The translations under genes and the position numbers were made by a program. A DNA stretch of 20,943 nt from a virus, in IMG/VR virus record IMGVR_UViG_3300035698_027396, positions 1 through 20,943 of that record. One strand, 5' to 3'. Of the stretch, positions 1-15,448 are shown in pieces (within the stretch, counting starts at the first letter, position 1; every line of letters begins with the position of its first letter). A model generated the notes under the pieces. It ran no database searches, was not told the DNA's origin, and saw only the letters and a program-made list of their open reading frames with translations.

Positions 1-324
1 AGCACTTTCAAAAAGTCGTATATTATCACGACGAAAGACGGCGTAAAGGCCACAATTAACCGGGCCGAGATTCGGGCCGCTCAGGTTGCGCTTGCCTCAA
101 TAGGCCCCACGACCGGCTCAATCACTCTAAGTACATCAAGTCCATATCTTGATGATATGCTGAAGCGCAAAGAAGATGGCACATGGCTCAAATATGGCCA
201 GAGTAATGCCGATGTAATGGACGCCTTGCGCGCAGCTGTATCTGAGTGTTCGGACTTAGTGGTGGTGCTCGACAAAACGAGCGACGAAATGATAGAAGTC
301 CGGAAAATGGCTAGGCAGAAGTGA
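1..324 (+). CDS. RNase H-like fold protein, 3' part (5' end outside window)
   Basis: The reading frame is open from the first base to TGA at 322-324, giving 107 visible residues. The pattern resembles the second half of RNase HI: an NRAEIRAAQVAL helix (matching the NNRxELxA helix with the catalytic Glu), then a strand and turn SITLSTSSPYL where RNase HI has T-DS-xY, then a Trp and an N-x-D-helix, and a C-terminal helix DEMIEVRKMAR where the family has a catalytic Asp. The Asp expected in 'TDS' is Ser here, and the last catalytic position looks like Glu, so the site is degenerate and activity is doubtful. The stop overlaps the GTG start of the next gene as GTGA, which suggests translational coupling to the polymerase. 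The fold assignment is my reading of weak motifs; the missing N-terminus prevents a firm call. Confidence 0.5.
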   Translation, partial: STFKKSYIITTKDGVKATINRAEIRAAQVALASIGPTTGSITLSTSSPYLDDMLKRKEDGTWLKYGQSNADVMDALRAAVSECSDLVVVLDKTSDEMIEVRKMARQK

Positions 325-2030
325 TTTGGCTGGAAATTAAGACCAAAGCAGCGACTGAATTTAAAAAGCGCAAATTAGGGAATGAATATCTCGAGCGTCT
401 CCGATACGAATTAAAAGAGATTGAAAAGCAGGGGTCTGAAAATTATTGGATCGGGCTCATTGAATCGGGTCAACAATTCGAGCACAATACCAGCGGGCTC
501 GTAATTGCTTGGCTGCTCGGAATTACACCTATCGACCCGATAGCAGACGGTATTGACCACAACATCGAGTACCAGCCGGATTTCCCCGACGTAGACATCG
601 ATTTCCTGCCCTTCGCACGCGATCCCATCAAGCGATATGCTGCCGAAAAATATGGCGACGAGAACGTATGTAGCATTGGTACATGGCTCACCTTCAAACC
701 AAAGCTCGCCATCAAAGATGCAGCAAGAGCTTTGGGAAAGGGAATCAAAGAAGCCAACGCACTCACAGTCGACCTGCCCGATGAGTTTGATGACTTCGAG
801 CGAGAAGACGCGCTAAAAGAGTATGAAACAGTAAGGACATACGCCGACCAATTCCCAGATGTTATAGATCTAGCATATAAATTGGTCGGGCGCATCAAGG
901 CACGTGGTAAGCATGCTGGTGGTATTATTATTGCGAGTGTGCCGATCAAGGACTATATTCCACTCACATATAGTGGAAAAGCTGGAAATAAGCAGTGGAT
1001 ATCAGCATGGACAGAGGGCCGGCACACACAACTGTCGAAGATGGGCTTTGTCAAATTCGATTTCCTTGGGCTTCGAACTTTGTTATACTGCTACAACGCC
1101 GAACGTCTGATTGAAAAGAAACGTGGGCATAAGATAGTCTGGGATATGGACCCGGAGGCCAACCGCTGCGGTTGGGTCGATATTGATGGCGAGCGCGAAA
1201 TGATCGCCTTCGACGATAAGCCCGCACTCAAAATAGCGAACGACAATAAGACCGAAACTATCTTCCAGCTTGACACGCATCTCGCGAAGAGCATCATCTC
1301 AAAGGGCGGTGTCAAATCATTCAATGACATCGTCGCCTACACCAGCCTCGGCCGCCCTGGCCCTCTACCAATGGTGGACGTCTATATCAGACGTCGAGAC
1401 GGGCGAGAATCGTGGCGCGAACTAGAAGATCCCGAAATCGCGAAGATCCTCACGGACACACACGGAATTATTATTTTCCAGGAACAGCTAGCCGATATTT
1501 GGAGGGCCAAAGCCGGGTTCACTGTTCCAGAGGCCGAAGCCGCACGAAAAGCGGTGGCGAAGAAATGGGAGGACAAACTCAAGCCGATTGAACAAAAATG
1601 GCTCGAGGGCGCTTCCAAAACCATGGGCCGGACATCTGCCGAAAAATGGTGGGGTCATATGGTTACTTTCGGCCGCTATGCATTTAACAAATGCCTAAGC
1701 AAAGATACAGTATTAGAGGATTCTGTAAGCGGGGCTACCGACTCAATCGAGAATTGGGCGCAGAGACTAAATAACGGATGTGATTTATTTCTGCGATCGA
1801 CAGATGGCAATGAAGAATTCGACAACAAATGCGTAGCCATCCACGACAATGGGGAGATGGACATATATGAAATCACATTTGATGATGGGACAACACTAAA
1901 AGCAACAATCAATCACCAACTAAAATGCACAGATGGACAATTTCACACAATTGCCGAGATTATCGACAAAGGATTGGAAATCAAGCCGTCTTTGCATAAA
2001 TGTGCAGAACCGGCCGAGATCCAAGGATAG
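321..2030 (+). CDS. dnaE: DNA polymerase III alpha (DnaE-like), N-terminal half fused to N-fragment of a split intein
   Basis: Residues 1-457 are the palm region of a C-family replicative polymerase. Visible motifs are PDFPDVDIDF (the two catalytic Asp), a GKHAGGIIIA segment, KFDFLGL (third catalytic Asp), LGRPGP, and IIIFQEQLADI followed by an ARKAVAKK helix. The extein ends at YAFNK (codon at 1689). From Cys458 (1692) the protein becomes an intein N-fragment of 112 residues: block A CLSKDTVL, then YEITFDDGTTLKATINH with the block B TxxH. The protein stops there, so it is not a complete polymerase; the rest lies in the 3498-4673 gene. The N-terminal PHP domain of bacterial DnaE (about 270 residues) is absent, and the GRGS/AGS segment is replaced by QFEHNTSG. 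The GTG start at 321 overlaps the upstream stop, with an AGG a few bases upstream. Confidence 0.93.
   Translation: MIWLEIKTKAATEFKKRKLGNEYLERLRYELKEIEKQGSENYWIGLIESGQQFEHNTSGLVIAWLLGITPIDPIADGIDHNIEYQPDFPDVDIDFLPFARDPIKRYAAEKYGDENVCSIGTWLTFKPKLAIKDAARALGKGIKEANALTVDLPDEFDDFEREDALKEYETVRTYADQFPDVIDLAYKLVGRIKARGKHAGGIIIASVPIKDYIPLTYSGKAGNKQWISAWTEGRHTQLSKMGFVKFDFLGLRTLLYCYNAERLIEKKRGHKIVWDMDPEANRCGWVDIDGEREMIAFDDKPALKIANDNKTETIFQLDTHLAKSIISKGGVKSFNDIVAYTSLGRPGPLPMVDVYIRRRDGRESWRELEDPEIAKILTDTHGIIIFQEQLADIWRAKAGFTVPEAEAARKAVAKKWEDKLKPIEQKWLEGASKTMGRTSAEKWWGHMVTFGRYAFNKCLSKDTVLEDSVSGATDSIENWAQRLNNGCDLFLRSTDGNEEFDNKCVAIHDNGEMDIYEITFDDGTTLKATINHQLKCTDGQFHTIAEIIDKGLEIKPSLHKCAEPAEIQG
1692..2027 (+). 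other. Split intein N-fragment (IntN, 112 residues)
   Basis: This is the part of the upstream polymerase gene that encodes intein rather than polymerase. It opens with Cys directly after the conserved extein sequence FNK and has the block A pattern CLSKDTVL. About 70 residues later come block B features: YEITFDDGTTLKATINH, containing T-x-N-H, followed by a DGQFHTIAEIIDKGLEI segment typical of the strand and helix after block B. No endonuclease domain is in this frame and no C-terminal HN motif is present before the TAG. In class 1 inteins Cys1 and the block B His carry out the first acyl shift. The fragment is somewhat longer than known phage-type N-fragments such as gp41-1 (about 88 residues). 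Confidence 0.88.
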
Positions 2031-3468
2031 AGTCGTTGCTATATGCAGTGGGTGCAACAAAAAACGCGATATTATATATGCAGAGCTTATTCGCTCAATT
2101 AACAAGCAATCTAAATATACCGAGAATTACGTATGTCCAACATGTTTGTTTGCTCTAGATACATATAAAGATGCTCTAAAAAAGCGATCAGTAGCCGCAC
2201 TGCCTAAAATATTGAATGGCGCATCTGAACGGTCCAAGGGCTTGTGGAATGATCCACAATATGCCGCAAAATGTCGAGCTGCATCCTTGGCAAAGTCGCG
2301 TTCTGCTGAGTTTAAAGCAAAATGCTCTCAATCAATGAAAAATAAATTTGCCAACGACAAAGAGTATGTTGCTAATATTAAAAAGGCACGGAAAAATTAT
2401 TGGTTAAATGACAAATATAAAAATGATAGGGCTTGGGACACGGAACAGTTCATCAAAGCAGCGAAAGCAGTTCACGGCGACATATACGATTATGGGTTGT
2501 CTCAATATGTTAACACAAAAACAAAAATCATAATCACGTGCAAAAAGCATGGCCCATTTAAACAAAGGCCGAGCCATCATTTAATATACAAGAATGGCTG
2601 TCCGAAATGCGCGTTTGAAATAACAGAATCACGCGGACAACTCGAGCTTAGGGAGTGGATATCGTCAATTATACCTTCAACTGTAATCTCTAATGAAAGG
2701 AAATTTGGCTTAGAATTTGATATTTTTGTGCCAGATCACGACCTAGCCTTGGAATACCATGGCGCGTTCTGGCATTCATTCTGCAGCACCGAAACCGCCG
2801 GCCAGAGAAGAAAACACAGCCGCAAGGCCGATCTCGCCTTAAAGCACTCAATTCAATTACTGCAGTTTTTTGATTATGAGTGGCACAACAAAAAAGAAAT
2901 TGTTCAATCGATGATTAAACATCGATTGAATATGTCGCCAAATAGATATTATGCAAGAAAAACTAGTGCTGTACAAATGTCGCCCAAAATGGCGAAAGTG
3001 TTTTTTAACGAAAACCATTTAATGGGGCATTGCAATGCCCAAATATATATCGGCCTCGAGTGTGATGACCAATTTATTTCTGCTATGTCATTCACAAATC
3101 GCGGACCACATTATGAAATGATAAGATATTGCAACCGATTAGAATCGCATATCTCTGGTGGTATGTCAAAATTAGTTGCATTCGCGAGAACCATTGGCGT
3201 CGACAGAATCCTATCATATGCCGATAGGCGATATTCACAAAATAATTGCTACAAAGGCGCCAATTTTAAATTGATTGGTAGCACAAATCCGGGATATTTT
3301 TATTGGTATAGAAATCAGATATATAACAGAATGAAATTTCAAAAGCACAAATTACACAAGCTCCTCGATAATTTTGATAACACAAAAACAGAAGCTGAGA
3401 ACATGTTTTCTGCTGGATTTCGCCGTATTTGGGATGCTGGACACTATAAACTAATGTCTGAATGTTAG
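1933..3468 (+). CDS. Free-standing homing endonuclease, Vsr/EDxHD type, between split intein halves
   Basis: Up to 511 residues in a frame different from both polymerase halves. Domains in order: a four-Cys zinc motif (C38/C41 and C68/C71); NUMOD-like repeats around residues 95-165 with patterns such as KGLWNDPQY; a segment at about 170-228 of the kind seen in phage nucleases (FIKAAKAVHGDIYDY, then C-x2-HG-x-F and GCPKC); a nuclease core at about 235-320 with FDIFVPDHD, LALEYHGAFWHS and IQLLQFFDYEW; then a C-terminal domain with SYADRRYS and GYFYWYRN. The core resembles Vsr-type/EDxHD homing endonucleases, with Asp263 and His281 among likely catalytic residues. The start is uncertain: ATG 1933 overlaps IntN by 98 bases and lacks a clear ribosome site, and GTG 2002 is an alternative. 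It is probably a DNA cutter that spreads the intein into empty dnaE alleles (inference). Confidence 0.87.
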   Translation: MDNFTQLPRLSTKDWKSSRLCINVQNRPRSKDRVVAICSGCNKKRDIIYAELIRSINKQSKYTENYVCPTCLFALDTYKDALKKRSVAALPKILNGASERSKGLWNDPQYAAKCRAASLAKSRSAEFKAKCSQSMKNKFANDKEYVANIKKARKNYWLNDKYKNDRAWDTEQFIKAAKAVHGDIYDYGLSQYVNTKTKIIITCKKHGPFKQRPSHHLIYKNGCPKCAFEITESRGQLELREWISSIIPSTVISNERKFGLEFDIFVPDHDLALEYHGAFWHSFCSTETAGQRRKHSRKADLALKHSIQLLQFFDYEWHNKKEIVQSMIKHRLNMSPNRYYARKTSAVQMSPKMAKVFFNENHLMGHCNAQIYIGLECDDQFISAMSFTNRGPHYEMIRYCNRLESHISGGMSKLVAFARTIGVDRILSYADRRYSQNNCYKGANFKLIGSTNPGYFYWYRNQIYNRMKFQKHKLHKLLDNFDNTKTEAENMFSAGFRRIWDAGHYKLMSEC

Positions 3469-3497
3469 TATTTAAAAGTACAAATCGGGCCTGATTC

Positions 3498-3608
3498 ATG
3501 AAGATTAAATCAATCAAGTATGCTGGTCGTGGTCGCACATTCTCGCCAGAGATGGAAGGCCCGCACCATAATTACAAAACCAACGCGACCGGGCCAATAC
3601 ACAAGAAT
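3498..3608 (+). other. Split intein C-fragment (IntC, 37 residues)
   Basis: The first 37 codons of the downstream polymerase half. It has the block F look (RTFSPEMEGPHHNYKT) and a block G ending GPIHKN, with the terminal Asn directly before Ser, the +1 extein nucleophile. The size agrees with natural C-fragments of phage-type split inteins such as gp41-1 and NrdJ-1 (about 35-40 residues). The residue before Asn is Lys rather than the usual His, with a His one place earlier. Together with IntN it would form one Cys1/Ser+1 class 1 intein. Confidence 0.87.
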
Positions 3609-4673
3609 TCACACACCTCGGCATATTCCGTCATCATTTATCGCTCGTTGTGGCTAAAAGCACATTACGCTGCCGAATGGTGGGCTGCAGTACTGTCAGA
3701 TTGTGGGCAAAAGAAATTAACCAGGTATATGGGCGTGGCGAAGCTCGAGGGGGTCAAGTTTGGCCCCATTGAGGTCAACAACCTATCTGCCAAGTTCACT
3801 ACGAGCAAAAACACCGTTCTTCCCGGTTTGTCTATGATTAAAGGCATCGGGGACGGCCAAGCTGAAGCAATAGCTGCGAGTGCTGAGTATTACAAGTCGA
3901 TGGAAGAATTTATCGACAAGCACGGTTCTTCAAAGACGATTCTCGAGCGGCTAATAAAACTAGGCGGATTTGATAAAATCCAGAGGAATCGAAAAGCTCT
4001 GTGGATGTGGTGGGTCTACAAATACGGCAACGATAAAGTCGCCACGAAACTCAGGCGTTCGATACGATGGTCGCTACGCTGGCCTATGAATAAGATTAAT
4101 GCCGAGCGCAAGAGGCAGGCTGACCATTATTTTACAGAATATTCGAATCGAAAGAAAACTCCGCCGAAAATCGCCAATTGGGCTCCTACCCATCCGACGT
4201 CAGAGCTCGTGACGTTCTCCGAAGATTTCGACCAATCGACAGCGGAGTATAAATGCTCGCAGAAAATTGACCCGAAATTCAGCGACATTCTGAGACTTTT
4301 CCCAATCAGTTTCGCAATCAAGGAAATTCTACACTTCGAGATTGAATATCTCGGATTCTATTGGCATTCGCCCATGGAAATGTATCAAGTCCATAAAGCG
4401 AGCATCGAAGACGCGAAACAGATGGGCGTTGTGGAGTGTGTCATCGAGAACGTCGAGGAGCGCAAGACTCCGAGAACGAAATATAAGGTCTTACATGTAA
4501 TTGATGGGGTTCAGACCGCAAAAATCATGGTCTGGCAGACGTCAATCGACAATAATGACCCTGAATTGCTGAAGGCTGGTAAAGGTATTATCGCAAGAGT
4601 GCTGTGGAACGCTAAATATAAGAGCTTTACTTTGGCCAAGGGCAGCAGGATTCGGCCGCTCAAGGAGATCTAA
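3498..4673 (+). CDS. dnaE: DNA polymerase III alpha (DnaE-like), C-terminal half preceded by split intein C-fragment
   Basis: Residues 1-37 are an intein C-fragment ending IHKN; residue 38 is the Ser that starts the C-extein. The extein opens SHTSAYSVIIYRSLWLKAHY, the fingers segment that normally follows FNK in DnaE. Then come YAAEWWAAVLS, a tandem helix-hairpin-helix region (PGLSMIKGIGDGQAEAI, later LIKLGGFD), the segment EIEYLGFYWHSPMEMY, and a C-terminal OB-like region with VECVIENVEERKTPRTKYK. The extein part is about 354 residues, so the two halves rebuild a polymerase of about 811 residues, shorter than cellular DnaE (about 1,160) because the PHP domain and probably the C-terminal tau-binding part are missing. 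TGA at 3492-3494 lies just upstream in this frame, so ATG 3498 starts an independent cistron. The stop overlaps the next ATG (TAATG). Confidence 0.92.
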   Translation: MKIKSIKYAGRGRTFSPEMEGPHHNYKTNATGPIHKNSHTSAYSVIIYRSLWLKAHYAAEWWAAVLSDCGQKKLTRYMGVAKLEGVKFGPIEVNNLSAKFTTSKNTVLPGLSMIKGIGDGQAEAIAASAEYYKSMEEFIDKHGSSKTILERLIKLGGFDKIQRNRKALWMWWVYKYGNDKVATKLRRSIRWSLRWPMNKINAERKRQADHYFTEYSNRKKTPPKIANWAPTHPTSELVTFSEDFDQSTAEYKCSQKIDPKFSDILRLFPISFAIKEILHFEIEYLGFYWHSPMEMYQVHKASIEDAKQMGVVECVIENVEERKTPRTKYKVLHVIDGVQTAKIMVWQTSIDNNDPELLKAGKGIIARVLWNAKYKSFTLAKGSRIRPLKEI

Positions 4674-6290: not shown

Positions 6291-6661
6291 TGTCGCTGAT
6301 TGAAGATATAATCGAAGTTTCTAGCAAGGAGCTGAAAGAGCAGATCGAACGAATGACAGGCGTCGAATGCTCTCTGCACGAAACAGAATATGGTTTTTGT
6401 GTTGTGTCGAAGACCCTCCAATCACCAGATATTAAAGTTGGTATATCTCCAACCAATATTGGCAGCGTTTCGTATCATGATTCGACAGTGCCAAGAATAT
6501 TTATTGATAAAGATAACGGGATTCTAGTCGAACGCGTCGATGAACGCTTCCAATTCGACGATCCGGATTGCTTTGCGAAAGCGCTACACCGGTTTATAGC
6601 TGTTTATTGCGCCAATAAGCGCATAATTAATAGATTGAAAGATTTCAGGGTGCCAGAATGA
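6290..6661 (+). CDS. Unknown protein, 123 residues
   Basis: I do not recognise this protein. It begins with an amphipathic helix (LIEDIIEVSSKELKEQIERM), followed by a mainly beta middle (YGFCVVSKTL, VPRIFIDKDNGILVERVDE) and a C-terminal helical part (CFAKALHRFIAVYCANKRII). There are no membrane segments and no metal motif. The ATG overlaps the stop of the oxidoreductase-like gene (TGATG) and its own stop overlaps the glycosylase start (ATGA), so it is certainly part of the operon and probably translated by coupling. Confidence 0.75.
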   Translation: MSLIEDIIEVSSKELKEQIERMTGVECSLHETEYGFCVVSKTLQSPDIKVGISPTNIGSVSYHDSTVPRIFIDKDNGILVERVDERFQFDDPDCFAKALHRFIAVYCANKRIINRLKDFRVPE

Positions 6662-7293
6662 GGTGGCACCAAAGAGCATCGATGATGTTGGAGCCGCTTC
6701 GCTCGGTGTGTATGAACTGTACGATGTGTCCGCTTGGTAGGGCGAAGCACGTTCATAACAACAAGCCATTAAAAGAGTATCGCGTATTCAGTACGATGAC
6801 CCCAAGCAAGTTTGTTGTTTTGGGGCAAAATCCTGGATATAATGAATGCGTGCAAGGGAAGGTATTTGTTGGCGATGCGGGTAAGAATCTCAACAAAGAA
6901 ATAGAGAAGCACGGGCTGACTCGTGATTCGTTCTATATTTCAAATGCAGTAAAATGTCATACGCCAAAAAATCGTGCACCGCAATTTGAAGAAGCAAGTG
7001 CTTGCGCCAGTATTCTTCGTCTCGAGTTATCTATCTTGCGTCCGCTTCTAGTCGTCACACTTGGCGCTTCGGCGCTCGATATTATGTGCCCGGGTATTAA
7101 ATTGTCTGAAGGACTCGGCCATGCCGTCGAATCGAAGTCATTCGGCGTCAAGGTGCTGCCGATATATCATCCATCTCCGCGTAATCTCACTATTCAGGCC
7201 AGAAGGAATCGCTTTGAAAAAGATATCCGAATTCTTTGTAAATTAGTGAATAACCTGAAGGATAAATACGAAGGTGTTCTCAAAGACCTTTAA
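6658..7293 (+). CDS. Uracil-DNA glycosylase, 4Fe-4S (family 4/5-like)
   Basis: 211 residues, close to the usual size of the family. Cys18, Cys21 and Cys24 near the N-terminus with Cys100 (NAVKC) and Cys116 offer the four ligands of the iron-sulfur cluster of family 4/5 enzymes. The uracil-pocket motif appears as LGQNPGYNE (residues 55-63; GEAPG in typical family 4), followed by GKVFVGDAGKNL, the ISNAVKCHTPKNRAP segment, a TLGASAL strand and HPSPRN (171-176) as the second active-site motif. The enzyme removes uracil from DNA and starts base excision repair. The changed first motif makes exact substrate preference uncertain. Its presence suggests the phage genome is not uracil-substituted (inference). 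It overlaps the upstream gene as ATGA. Confidence 0.87.
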   Translation: MRWHQRASMMLEPLRSVCMNCTMCPLGRAKHVHNNKPLKEYRVFSTMTPSKFVVLGQNPGYNECVQGKVFVGDAGKNLNKEIEKHGLTRDSFYISNAVKCHTPKNRAPQFEEASACASILRLELSILRPLLVVTLGASALDIMCPGIKLSEGLGHAVESKSFGVKVLPIYHPSPRNLTIQARRNRFEKDIRILCKLVNNLKDKYEGVLKDL

Positions 7294-14263: not shown

Positions 14264-15448
14264 ATGCCCGTGATTTACATTTGTACTGCCTTCGACGATA
14301 GCGACCAGATAACGCCCCGTCCGCTGATTAGCTTAATCGACAATGACGGTAAGCTTGAGCTGCTTCCAATGTACATGAAGGGCACTGGGGTCAAGCTACA
14401 AAAAGTGTACGACAATATAGCCAAGATTAACAATCTCTTTGGCCAGGGAATCGTTTATGCCAACGATTTCAAATCGCACATTTACGCTTTTAATGTTGGC
14501 GGACATAACAAAGTATTCGCTGATCCAACGAAAATAACCCTTCAGTCGAACGATATAAAGGGCGCAGCCGGCGAGCTTGCTAGGCATATCAAAAATTTCA
14601 AAGCTCGCAAACCACAAGCGTGGCAGGCTCTTCTGGCGAATGCTCATAATGCTTATCTTGAGCTCGAATTACGTGGTTTCGATAACGGAGTTAGGACAGT
14701 ATATCCAAGATATTTCGAAACTGGGCATGGAAGAACGGCAGCTAAAACATTCGACAATGGCCGCGTGTGCAAATACTCCATCCAGAACGCAACCAGCAAA
14801 TACAACATTCAACAAACCCACAGGATGCACAACCATTTCATCCATCTAGACTGGATTTCGGCCGACATGAGAATGATTAGCATCATGTCTGGCGATGAGA
14901 AACTCCGGGACTCTTTCAAGCATTCAGACCCATACACGGTTGTGGCAAAAGAGACCGGCGAAGATAGGAATGTTTGCAAGATCAAATTGCTCGAGGCCAT
15001 TAACAGTCTGCAATATAATAGCCCGCGAGTTAATATCTTCCCAACACTCGGAAAATGGATGGAGCAGACGGTAGAGCAAATCGCCAGAAATGGGTATTCC
15101 GAAACAATTCTCGGACGGCGAATTTATCTGAAGGATACAAAGAAATCGGACGACTACGACAAGATGAAATCGGTGTTCAATAGATCAGTGCAGGGCGGGG
15201 TTGCTCACGCAATGCAACTAACGATACATAAGTTGGTGAACAAGATATCAGACAACGTGCTGGCCGAGATTCACGACTCAGTAATTATGACTTCTGATGT
15301 ACACATGGCAAAGAAAATTATCGAGTACTCTGTTGGGATTATGACGCGTCCATTCGGAAAATTAGTTGACGGCGATCCGCTATTTCCAGTAGCCATAAGC
15401 ATTGGCAAACACTGGAGAGAATGGAAGAAGGTCAAGGAGGTTCGGTAA
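14264..15448 (+). CDS. Family A (Pol I-like) DNA polymerase, compact and divergent
   Basis: 394 residues. Motif A is HLDWISADMRMISIMSGD (Asp196; canonical D-Y-S-Q-I-E-L-R), followed by the expected D-P-Y segment. Motif B is degenerate: R235 and K239 remain, but the canonical Phe and Tyr positions of the O-helix read Leu and Asn. Then TILGRRIYLKD, FNRSVQGGVAHAMQL and motif C IHDSV (His337, Asp338) follow in order. Before motif A, SIQNATSKYNIQQTHRM matches the 'NLQN-P-R' region. No exonuclease domain is present, and there is barely room for a full thumb. Both catalytic Asp remain, so activity is possible. The steric-gate Glu of motif A is Asp. It could be a gap-filling or translesion polymerase working beside DnaE (inference). 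Confidence 0.8.
   Translation: MPVIYICTAFDDSDQITPRPLISLIDNDGKLELLPMYMKGTGVKLQKVYDNIAKINNLFGQGIVYANDFKSHIYAFNVGGHNKVFADPTKITLQSNDIKGAAGELARHIKNFKARKPQAWQALLANAHNAYLELELRGFDNGVRTVYPRYFETGHGRTAAKTFDNGRVCKYSIQNATSKYNIQQTHRMHNHFIHLDWISADMRMISIMSGDEKLRDSFKHSDPYTVVAKETGEDRNVCKIKLLEAINSLQYNSPRVNIFPTLGKWMEQTVEQIARNGYSETILGRRIYLKDTKKSDDYDKMKSVFNRSVQGGVAHAMQLTIHKLVNKISDNVLAEIHDSVIMTSDVHMAKKIIEYSVGIMTRPFGKLVDGDPLFPVAISIGKHWREWKKVKEVR
15434..15440 (+). promoter_or_regulatory. Shine-Dalgarno site deciding the start of the UvsY-like gene
   Basis: AAGGAGG lies 7 bases before ATG 15448. It rules in that ATG over an in-frame start 27 bases upstream. Confidence 0.7.

Follow-up and report, generated by a model that had tools for sequence, protein, structure and literature searches.

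The window analysed here, a single metagenomic contig of 20,943 bases from a virus (IMG/VR record IMGVR_UViG_3300035698_027396), carries what is very likely a tailed-phage dnaE gene fractured by a split intein and a free-standing homing endonuclease gene of the EDxHD/Vsr type, with the two polymerase halves joined by protein trans-splicing. The elements follow one another on the plus strand: the N-extein (321–1691), the N-terminal intein half (IntN, 1692–2030), the nuclease gene (1933–3468), the C-terminal intein half (IntC, 3498–3608) and the C-extein (3609–4673). A preliminary description of this DNA, made from the letters alone, had read the polymerase frame as running to FNK at base 1691, continuing as a Cys-led IntN from 1692 to a stop ending at 2030, and resuming after an IntC at 3498–3608 directly before SHTSAYS, and these coordinates are exact. 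Its proposal of a split intein in a fractured dnaE is likewise upheld by profile matches, by the predicted assembly of the halves and by the existence of uninterrupted relatives. To judge from sequence comparison and structure prediction, and as far as the papers that cite it describe it, the window is a further example of an already known class of fractured genes, and every testable feature fits.

Both exteins are recognizable as parts of a DnaE-like DNA polymerase III alpha subunit. The N-extein, which comprises the palm and fingers part, matches the Pfam families DNA_pol3_alpha (expectation value (E) 8.2e-37) and DNA_pol3_finger (4.5e-33) as well as phrog_405 (7.6e-97); its polymerase sequence ends ...MVTFGRYAFNK at base 1691, and the open reading frame (ORF) that contains it, DnaE-N, extends over 321–2030 with its stop codon at 2028–2030. 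The second ORF, DnaE-C (3498–4673), holds the C-terminal part of the polymerase from SHTSAYS onward, with an HHH_6 domain (Pfam, 6.1e-14), and its match to phrog_405 (6.3e-31) begins only at residue 37. When the exteins are spliced in silico they align by tblastn without a gap across the junction with dnaE genes that have no interruption, for instance that of LR756511 (E 2.7e-96; 28% across about 770 residues); in the dnaE of Streptomyces phage Nanodon, the end of the match to the N part and the start of the match to the C part are neighbouring bases. The earlier statement that FNK joined to SHTSAYS restores a DnaE motif is thus borne out, since contiguous relatives join at exactly FNK/SH. The family phrog_4335, whose match to DnaE-C starts at residue 1, was considered as a known split C-terminal half and rejected; the dnaE genes of nickie, ZY21, RHph_X66 and RHEph10 are uninterrupted.

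The same position was scored in 80 dnaE loci from viral contigs, gathered with a two-sequence DnaE profile (an alignment of nine sequences was too diverse). About 50 loci are contiguous at FNK/SH, so that the uninterrupted relatives called for by the preliminary description do exist; the closest relative, L015, is contiguous and reads GFNL/SHATAY. In three loci (L016, L041 and L078) the break falls at this dnaE residue too; the gaps measure 1293, 1394 and 1403 bases, respectively, and each locus has an IntN with a stop, one ORF for an EDxHD-like nuclease built differently from that of the window, and an IntC opening the second half. In both L041 and L078 the nuclease gene begins before IntN ends, just as it does in the window. 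The three nucleases give weak Vsr/DUF559 matches, and a profile of the window's nuclease domain matches them at 0.0085, 2.5e-4 and 7.8e-6; none of the three contains a Mom domain, a feature of the window's nuclease described below. An inline mini-intein of 142 aa (Pfam intein 2.9e-10) occupies this site in phage MT835601, and another does so in Rhodococcus phage Peregrin. Hence FNK/SH is a recurrent insertion site that occurs in empty, inline and fractured states.

Some of these loci are of interest in their own right. The split inteins of L041 (4460–4786) and L078 (8393–8704) begin with Ser1 rather than Cys1 and are candidates for cysteine-independent splicing tools. In Gordonia phage Wojtek (L009:3305–4108), an inline intein with an HNH-like nuclease (CxxC...CxxC) lies within 1–2 residues of FNK/SH. 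A further phage dnaE intein, in L079 (4281–6388), breaks the region of the PHP domain, and sequence resembling an intein C terminus occurs shortly before the palm DxD motif in L087 (about 6857–7025) and possibly also in L086 (about 4051–4170).

The two intein halves of the window can be identified individually and together. IntN, of 112 aa (coding 1692–2027), opens CLSKDTVLEDS..., so that Cys1 is present, contains the block B motif TINH, and then stops; it matches TIGR01445, the model of the intein N-terminal region, at 3.9e-5, exactly the cut-off of that model, and NF007079, a DnaE model with a split intein at its end, at 7.7e-8. IntC, of 37 aa, opens DnaE-C as MKIKSIKYAGRGRTFSPEMEGPHHNYKTNATGPIHKN, ends ...GPIHKN with its terminal Asn codon at 3606–3608, and is followed directly by SHTSAYS...; it is recognized by alignment with the same-site inteins, by a leave-one-out hidden Markov model (HMM), and by co-folding. 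The joined halves match the Npu and Ssp DnaE inteins, and as one string they match the Npu DnaE intein 2keq at 7.6e-8 in an alignment that crosses the join. Leave-one-out HMMs, built without the window sequence and run on all window ORFs, rank each half first (IntN 1.3e-8, IntC 0.0037). Furthermore, the splicing nucleophiles and anchors are intact: Cys1, the block B TINH (TxxH), the block-F His, the terminal Asn and Ser+1. A match of IntN to phrog_21652 was set aside as weak (0.03) and inconsistent in position. The net charges of the halves are −13 for IntN and +5 for IntC, and those of L016 are +16 and −11; charge complementarity was dropped as proof of pairing because it fails in L041 and L078.

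Structure prediction, proposed earlier as a check on the pair, returns a single fold. The AlphaFold2 input was the frame from 1392 to 3908, translated without a break and with stop codons treated as residues; it comprises, in order, the N-extein, IntN, a linker of about 490 nonsense residues, IntC and the C-extein, and relatives were aligned to the genuine segments only. This alignment was fixed by extein anchors; an unanchored version stacked IntC on IntN, plausibly reflecting an internally repeated intein fold. In the resulting model the nonsense linker is unfolded (predicted local distance difference test (pLDDT) about 24–46) and the IntN core and first IntC strand reach about 76–88. The top Foldseek matches are DnaE inteins, and a structural aligner superposes model residues 138–726 on 4kl5, the Npu DnaE intein (Z 9.6, root-mean-square deviation 3.2, 90 aligned), with one intein fold combining IntN (138–204) and IntC (701–726). 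IntN and IntC are thus predicted to assemble into one intein fold, even though the overall quality of the model is low (predicted template-modelling score 0.32), its alignment is shallow and the IntC end is of low confidence. Ligation of the DnaE halves is an inference.

The gene in the break encodes a protein of 511 aa (1933–3468), whose identification as an EDxHD/Vsr-type homing endonuclease is supported by profile comparison and by a structure model. The preliminary description correctly recognized a free-standing endonuclease gene of this type. It does not simply follow the IntN frame as described there, however: its ATG at 1933 lies inside IntN, producing a 98-base overlap in another reading frame. 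The ORF matches phrog_559 (6.7e-80) and phrog_3339 (3.4e-77, “homing endonuclease”), and no nuclease family in Pfam or NCBIfam is matched directly. A profile of seven relatives has a sole significant match in the PDB, 3r3p (“Mobile intron protein”, 1.4e-4), which we take to be the EDxHD enzyme I-Bth0305I. That enzyme has been named as the EDxHD structure (PMC3943268). The nuclease core (about residues 231–334; 2623–2934) resembles 3hrl structurally (Z 13.0), and an alignment of 40 relatives shows D263, E274, H281 and K298 without variation and H295 as nearly invariant. Upstream of the core lies a putative CapR/DUF723-like zinc-type repeat (about residues 170–227; 2440–2613), weakly matched by CapR in the window (0.11) and by DUF723 at 1.7e-6 in the PA5oct homologue; this domain type is described in PMC12350094. 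The G+C content of the nuclease gene is 0.39, compared with 0.47–0.49 in the exteins, and is consistent with a separate origin. Scans of the break for promoters and terminators return more sites than shuffled sequences do, yet no convincing element.

Beyond the core, residues 336–511 of the nuclease (2938–3465) form a C-terminal domain with a GNAT fold, in a structure model whose pLDDT exceeds 90 across most of residues 170–511. The best Foldseek match of this domain is phage Mu Mom (8bv8, 2.8e-6), an inactive mutant in which S124 is changed to Ala; many other GNATs score as well as Mom in the structural aligner, so the fold alone is not specific. Profile–profile comparison by hhalign with the Mom family gives a probability of 97.6 and E 3.8e-12. 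The Pfam model Mom PF25680 matches 9 of 17 relatives (best 4e-9) but not the window's own domain, which is matched by the Mom-like phrog_1384 at 4.2e-7. The equivalents of Mom H58, E108, R111, D149 and Y159 are conserved in the nuclease family; the column of Mu Mom S124, where the alignment is gapped, holds Thr in 20 of 40 and Ser in 4 of 40. Because sequence singles out Mom where the fold does not, these profile matches indicate that the domain belongs to the Mom family. It is common to a large nuclease family that includes the window, L095 and L101–L180.

In jumbo phages, fusions of a Mom domain to a nuclease were noted by Iyer and colleagues, who suggested a role in restriction–modification (PMC7824862, 2021). 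Those fusions, whose nuclease is of restriction-endonuclease fold, share with the window the presence of a nuclease and a Mom-family domain in one chain; they differ in that they were read as restriction–modification systems, and the words intein, homing endonuclease and Vsr are absent from the text of that paper. The tie between Mom–nuclease fusions and the homing endonucleases of fractured genes is a link made here, by sequence comparison. It invites the speculation, which we regard as doubtful, that the nuclease both cuts the intein-free dnaE of rival phages and marks adenines of its own phage through the Mom domain. If this were true, a selfish element in a fractured polymerase gene would carry its own restriction–modification logic in one chain.

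It is informative to set this locus beside systems that are already known. The class of fractured genes that combine a split intein with a Vsr-like/EDxHD homing endonuclease was reportedly described by Dassa et al. in 2009. The cyanobacterial split DnaE inteins Ssp and Npu share with the window their fold, split point, similar half sizes and the gene dnaE, whereas they have no nuclease gene between the halves and a penultimate Ser where the window has Lys; their insertion lies three residues further upstream, before CFNKSH. The inline inteins of MT835601 and Peregrin share the insertion point but sit in one continuous gene with no nuclease gene. The fractured-gene class is cited in PMC6892783 and PMC12350094; in it, a split intein interrupts a gene for an enzyme of DNA metabolism and a free-standing gene for a Vsr-related nuclease lies between the halves, and the window differs in that its host gene is dnaE, broken at FNK/SH. 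The closest published homologue of the nuclease, that of the Pseudomonas jumbo phage PA5oct (36.6% over residues 167–503), sits in a fractured polB gene: it lies between two DNA polymerase ORFs, and intein halves are visible there. A split PolB intein with a nuclease has been reported in the closely related jumbo phage MIJ3. The MIJ3/PA5oct system has the window's order of N-half, nuclease and C-half and differs in breaking PolB and not DnaE, in its Ser1 intein, and in that the MIJ3 authors label the nuclease HNH (PMC6892783).

Members of the same nuclease family also occur in the fractured polB genes of L104 and L110 and in the intein-split terminases of L139 and L140 (gene names read from sequence). 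In the two terminases (L139:2384–3559, L140:1529–3712) the split lies close to the N terminus of the intein, which leaves the greater part of it on the second ORF, and the nuclease is upstream; they resemble atypical splits of the AceL-TerL type; L140 has a second intein-like insert with a nuclease downstream. In Proteus phage PM2 (L099:1–1997), the “recombinase” (UvsX) ORF opens with IntC-like sequence and has a homing endonuclease gene and an annotated DNA repair ORF upstream, possibly an unannotated fractured uvsX. Since the homologous nuclease of PM2 sits outside the split uvsX, this phage is left out of the cases in which the nuclease family occupies a break.

Several observations weigh against a functional trans-splicing system. 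Although IntN was found by the proposed search of both pieces against intein profiles (TIGR01445, NF007079), IntC alone has no match in Pfam or NCBIfam. IntC also carries Ser for the F-block Asp and Lys for the penultimate His, positions at which the usual residues are not absolute: the penultimate residue is Cys in L006 and Ser in L016, L041 and L078, and the Npu DnaE intein presumably also lacks the penultimate His. Both residues normally aid splicing (PMC7765530). No clear Shine-Dalgarno sequence was seen before the nuclease or the DnaE-C start, and viral contigs scanned with DnaE-C or DnaE-N as single-protein queries yielded no close relative. Finally, the window DnaE has no PHP domain at its start and is missing the G-x-GRGS motif present in nearly all of its relatives, so that it is uncertain whether the ligated enzyme would be active. 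Several features go beyond the preliminary description: the nuclease start inside IntN, the Ser in block F and the Lys before the terminal Asn of IntC, the Mom domain, the three contigs broken at the same site, and a DnaE without PHP or GRGS.

These points matter most for the alternative that intein splicing has been lost, with the DnaE pieces assembling non-covalently or the gene decaying while only the nuclease is under selection. The non-canonical IntC residues would suit such a loss, as would a DnaE without GRGS in a phage whose PolA-type polymerase ORF could replicate it instead, and phage Aeh1 NrdA provides a precedent for a split enzyme whose parts are produced as separate polypeptides (PMC3653736). 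We nonetheless think it quite unlikely. The four nucleophile and anchor positions are all intact, the exteins and intein halves are all open and alignable end to end, and the halves still co-fold in prediction. Likewise, GRGS is missing in L015, L017 and L063 among others, and because L015 and L017 share the loss while uninterrupted at FNK/SH, the GRGS-less state is a property of a polymerase subgroup and not intein damage or decay caused by the break. Homologous EDxHD nucleases occur in phage introns (PMC12350094), which would allow the gap to be an intron of group I or II that harbours a homing endonuclease gene and is removed at the RNA level; with the Rfam intron families giving no match in the window up to E 1, and with both edges being intein halves that have the correct blocks and keep the polymerase frame, this is scarcely credible. 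Similarly improbable is an assembly artefact or a chimera of two dnaE genes: although the window is known from a single metagenomic contig, three independent contigs are broken at the same residue, and a complementary IntN and IntC would not be expected from an artefact.

Other polymerase and glycosylase genes were noticed along the way. The GRGS-less phage DnaE subgroup takes in the window (321–600), L015, L017, L046, L047 and L063. The short PolA-family ORF of the window (14264–15448, 394 aa) has HDS in motif C instead of the usual HDE. The uracil-DNA glycosylase of the window is a separate gene (6658–7293, Pfam UDG 6e-26); in several phages dnaE is apparently fused to such a domain, for example in Pseudomonas phage nickie (L011:6001–7089).

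Under the favoured explanation, fracture by a split intein with trans-splicing, a mobile intein at FNK/SH would have been broken in two, at the usual insertion point of nucleases, by a homing endonuclease gene. The DnaE halves would be translated separately, IntN (−13) and IntC (+5) would associate, and trans-splicing would excise the intein and join ...RYAFNK to SHTSAYS, yielding a product of about 457 + 354 residues with the junction peptide RYAFNKSHTSAYS. The nuclease may cut the intein-free dnaE of co-infecting phages, and repair of the break could then copy IntN, nuclease and IntC into the cut gene.

The locus adds new natural split inteins, two of them with Ser1 in the related contigs, that may serve protein engineering, and the link between Mom domains and homing nucleases makes the restriction–modification reading of the jumbo-phage fusions testable. 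For the phages themselves, the dnaE site offers a series of empty, inline and fractured states, the last with at least two nuclease architectures, which allows the origin of split inteins from inline ones to be asked and bears on whether the nuclease gene causes the break.

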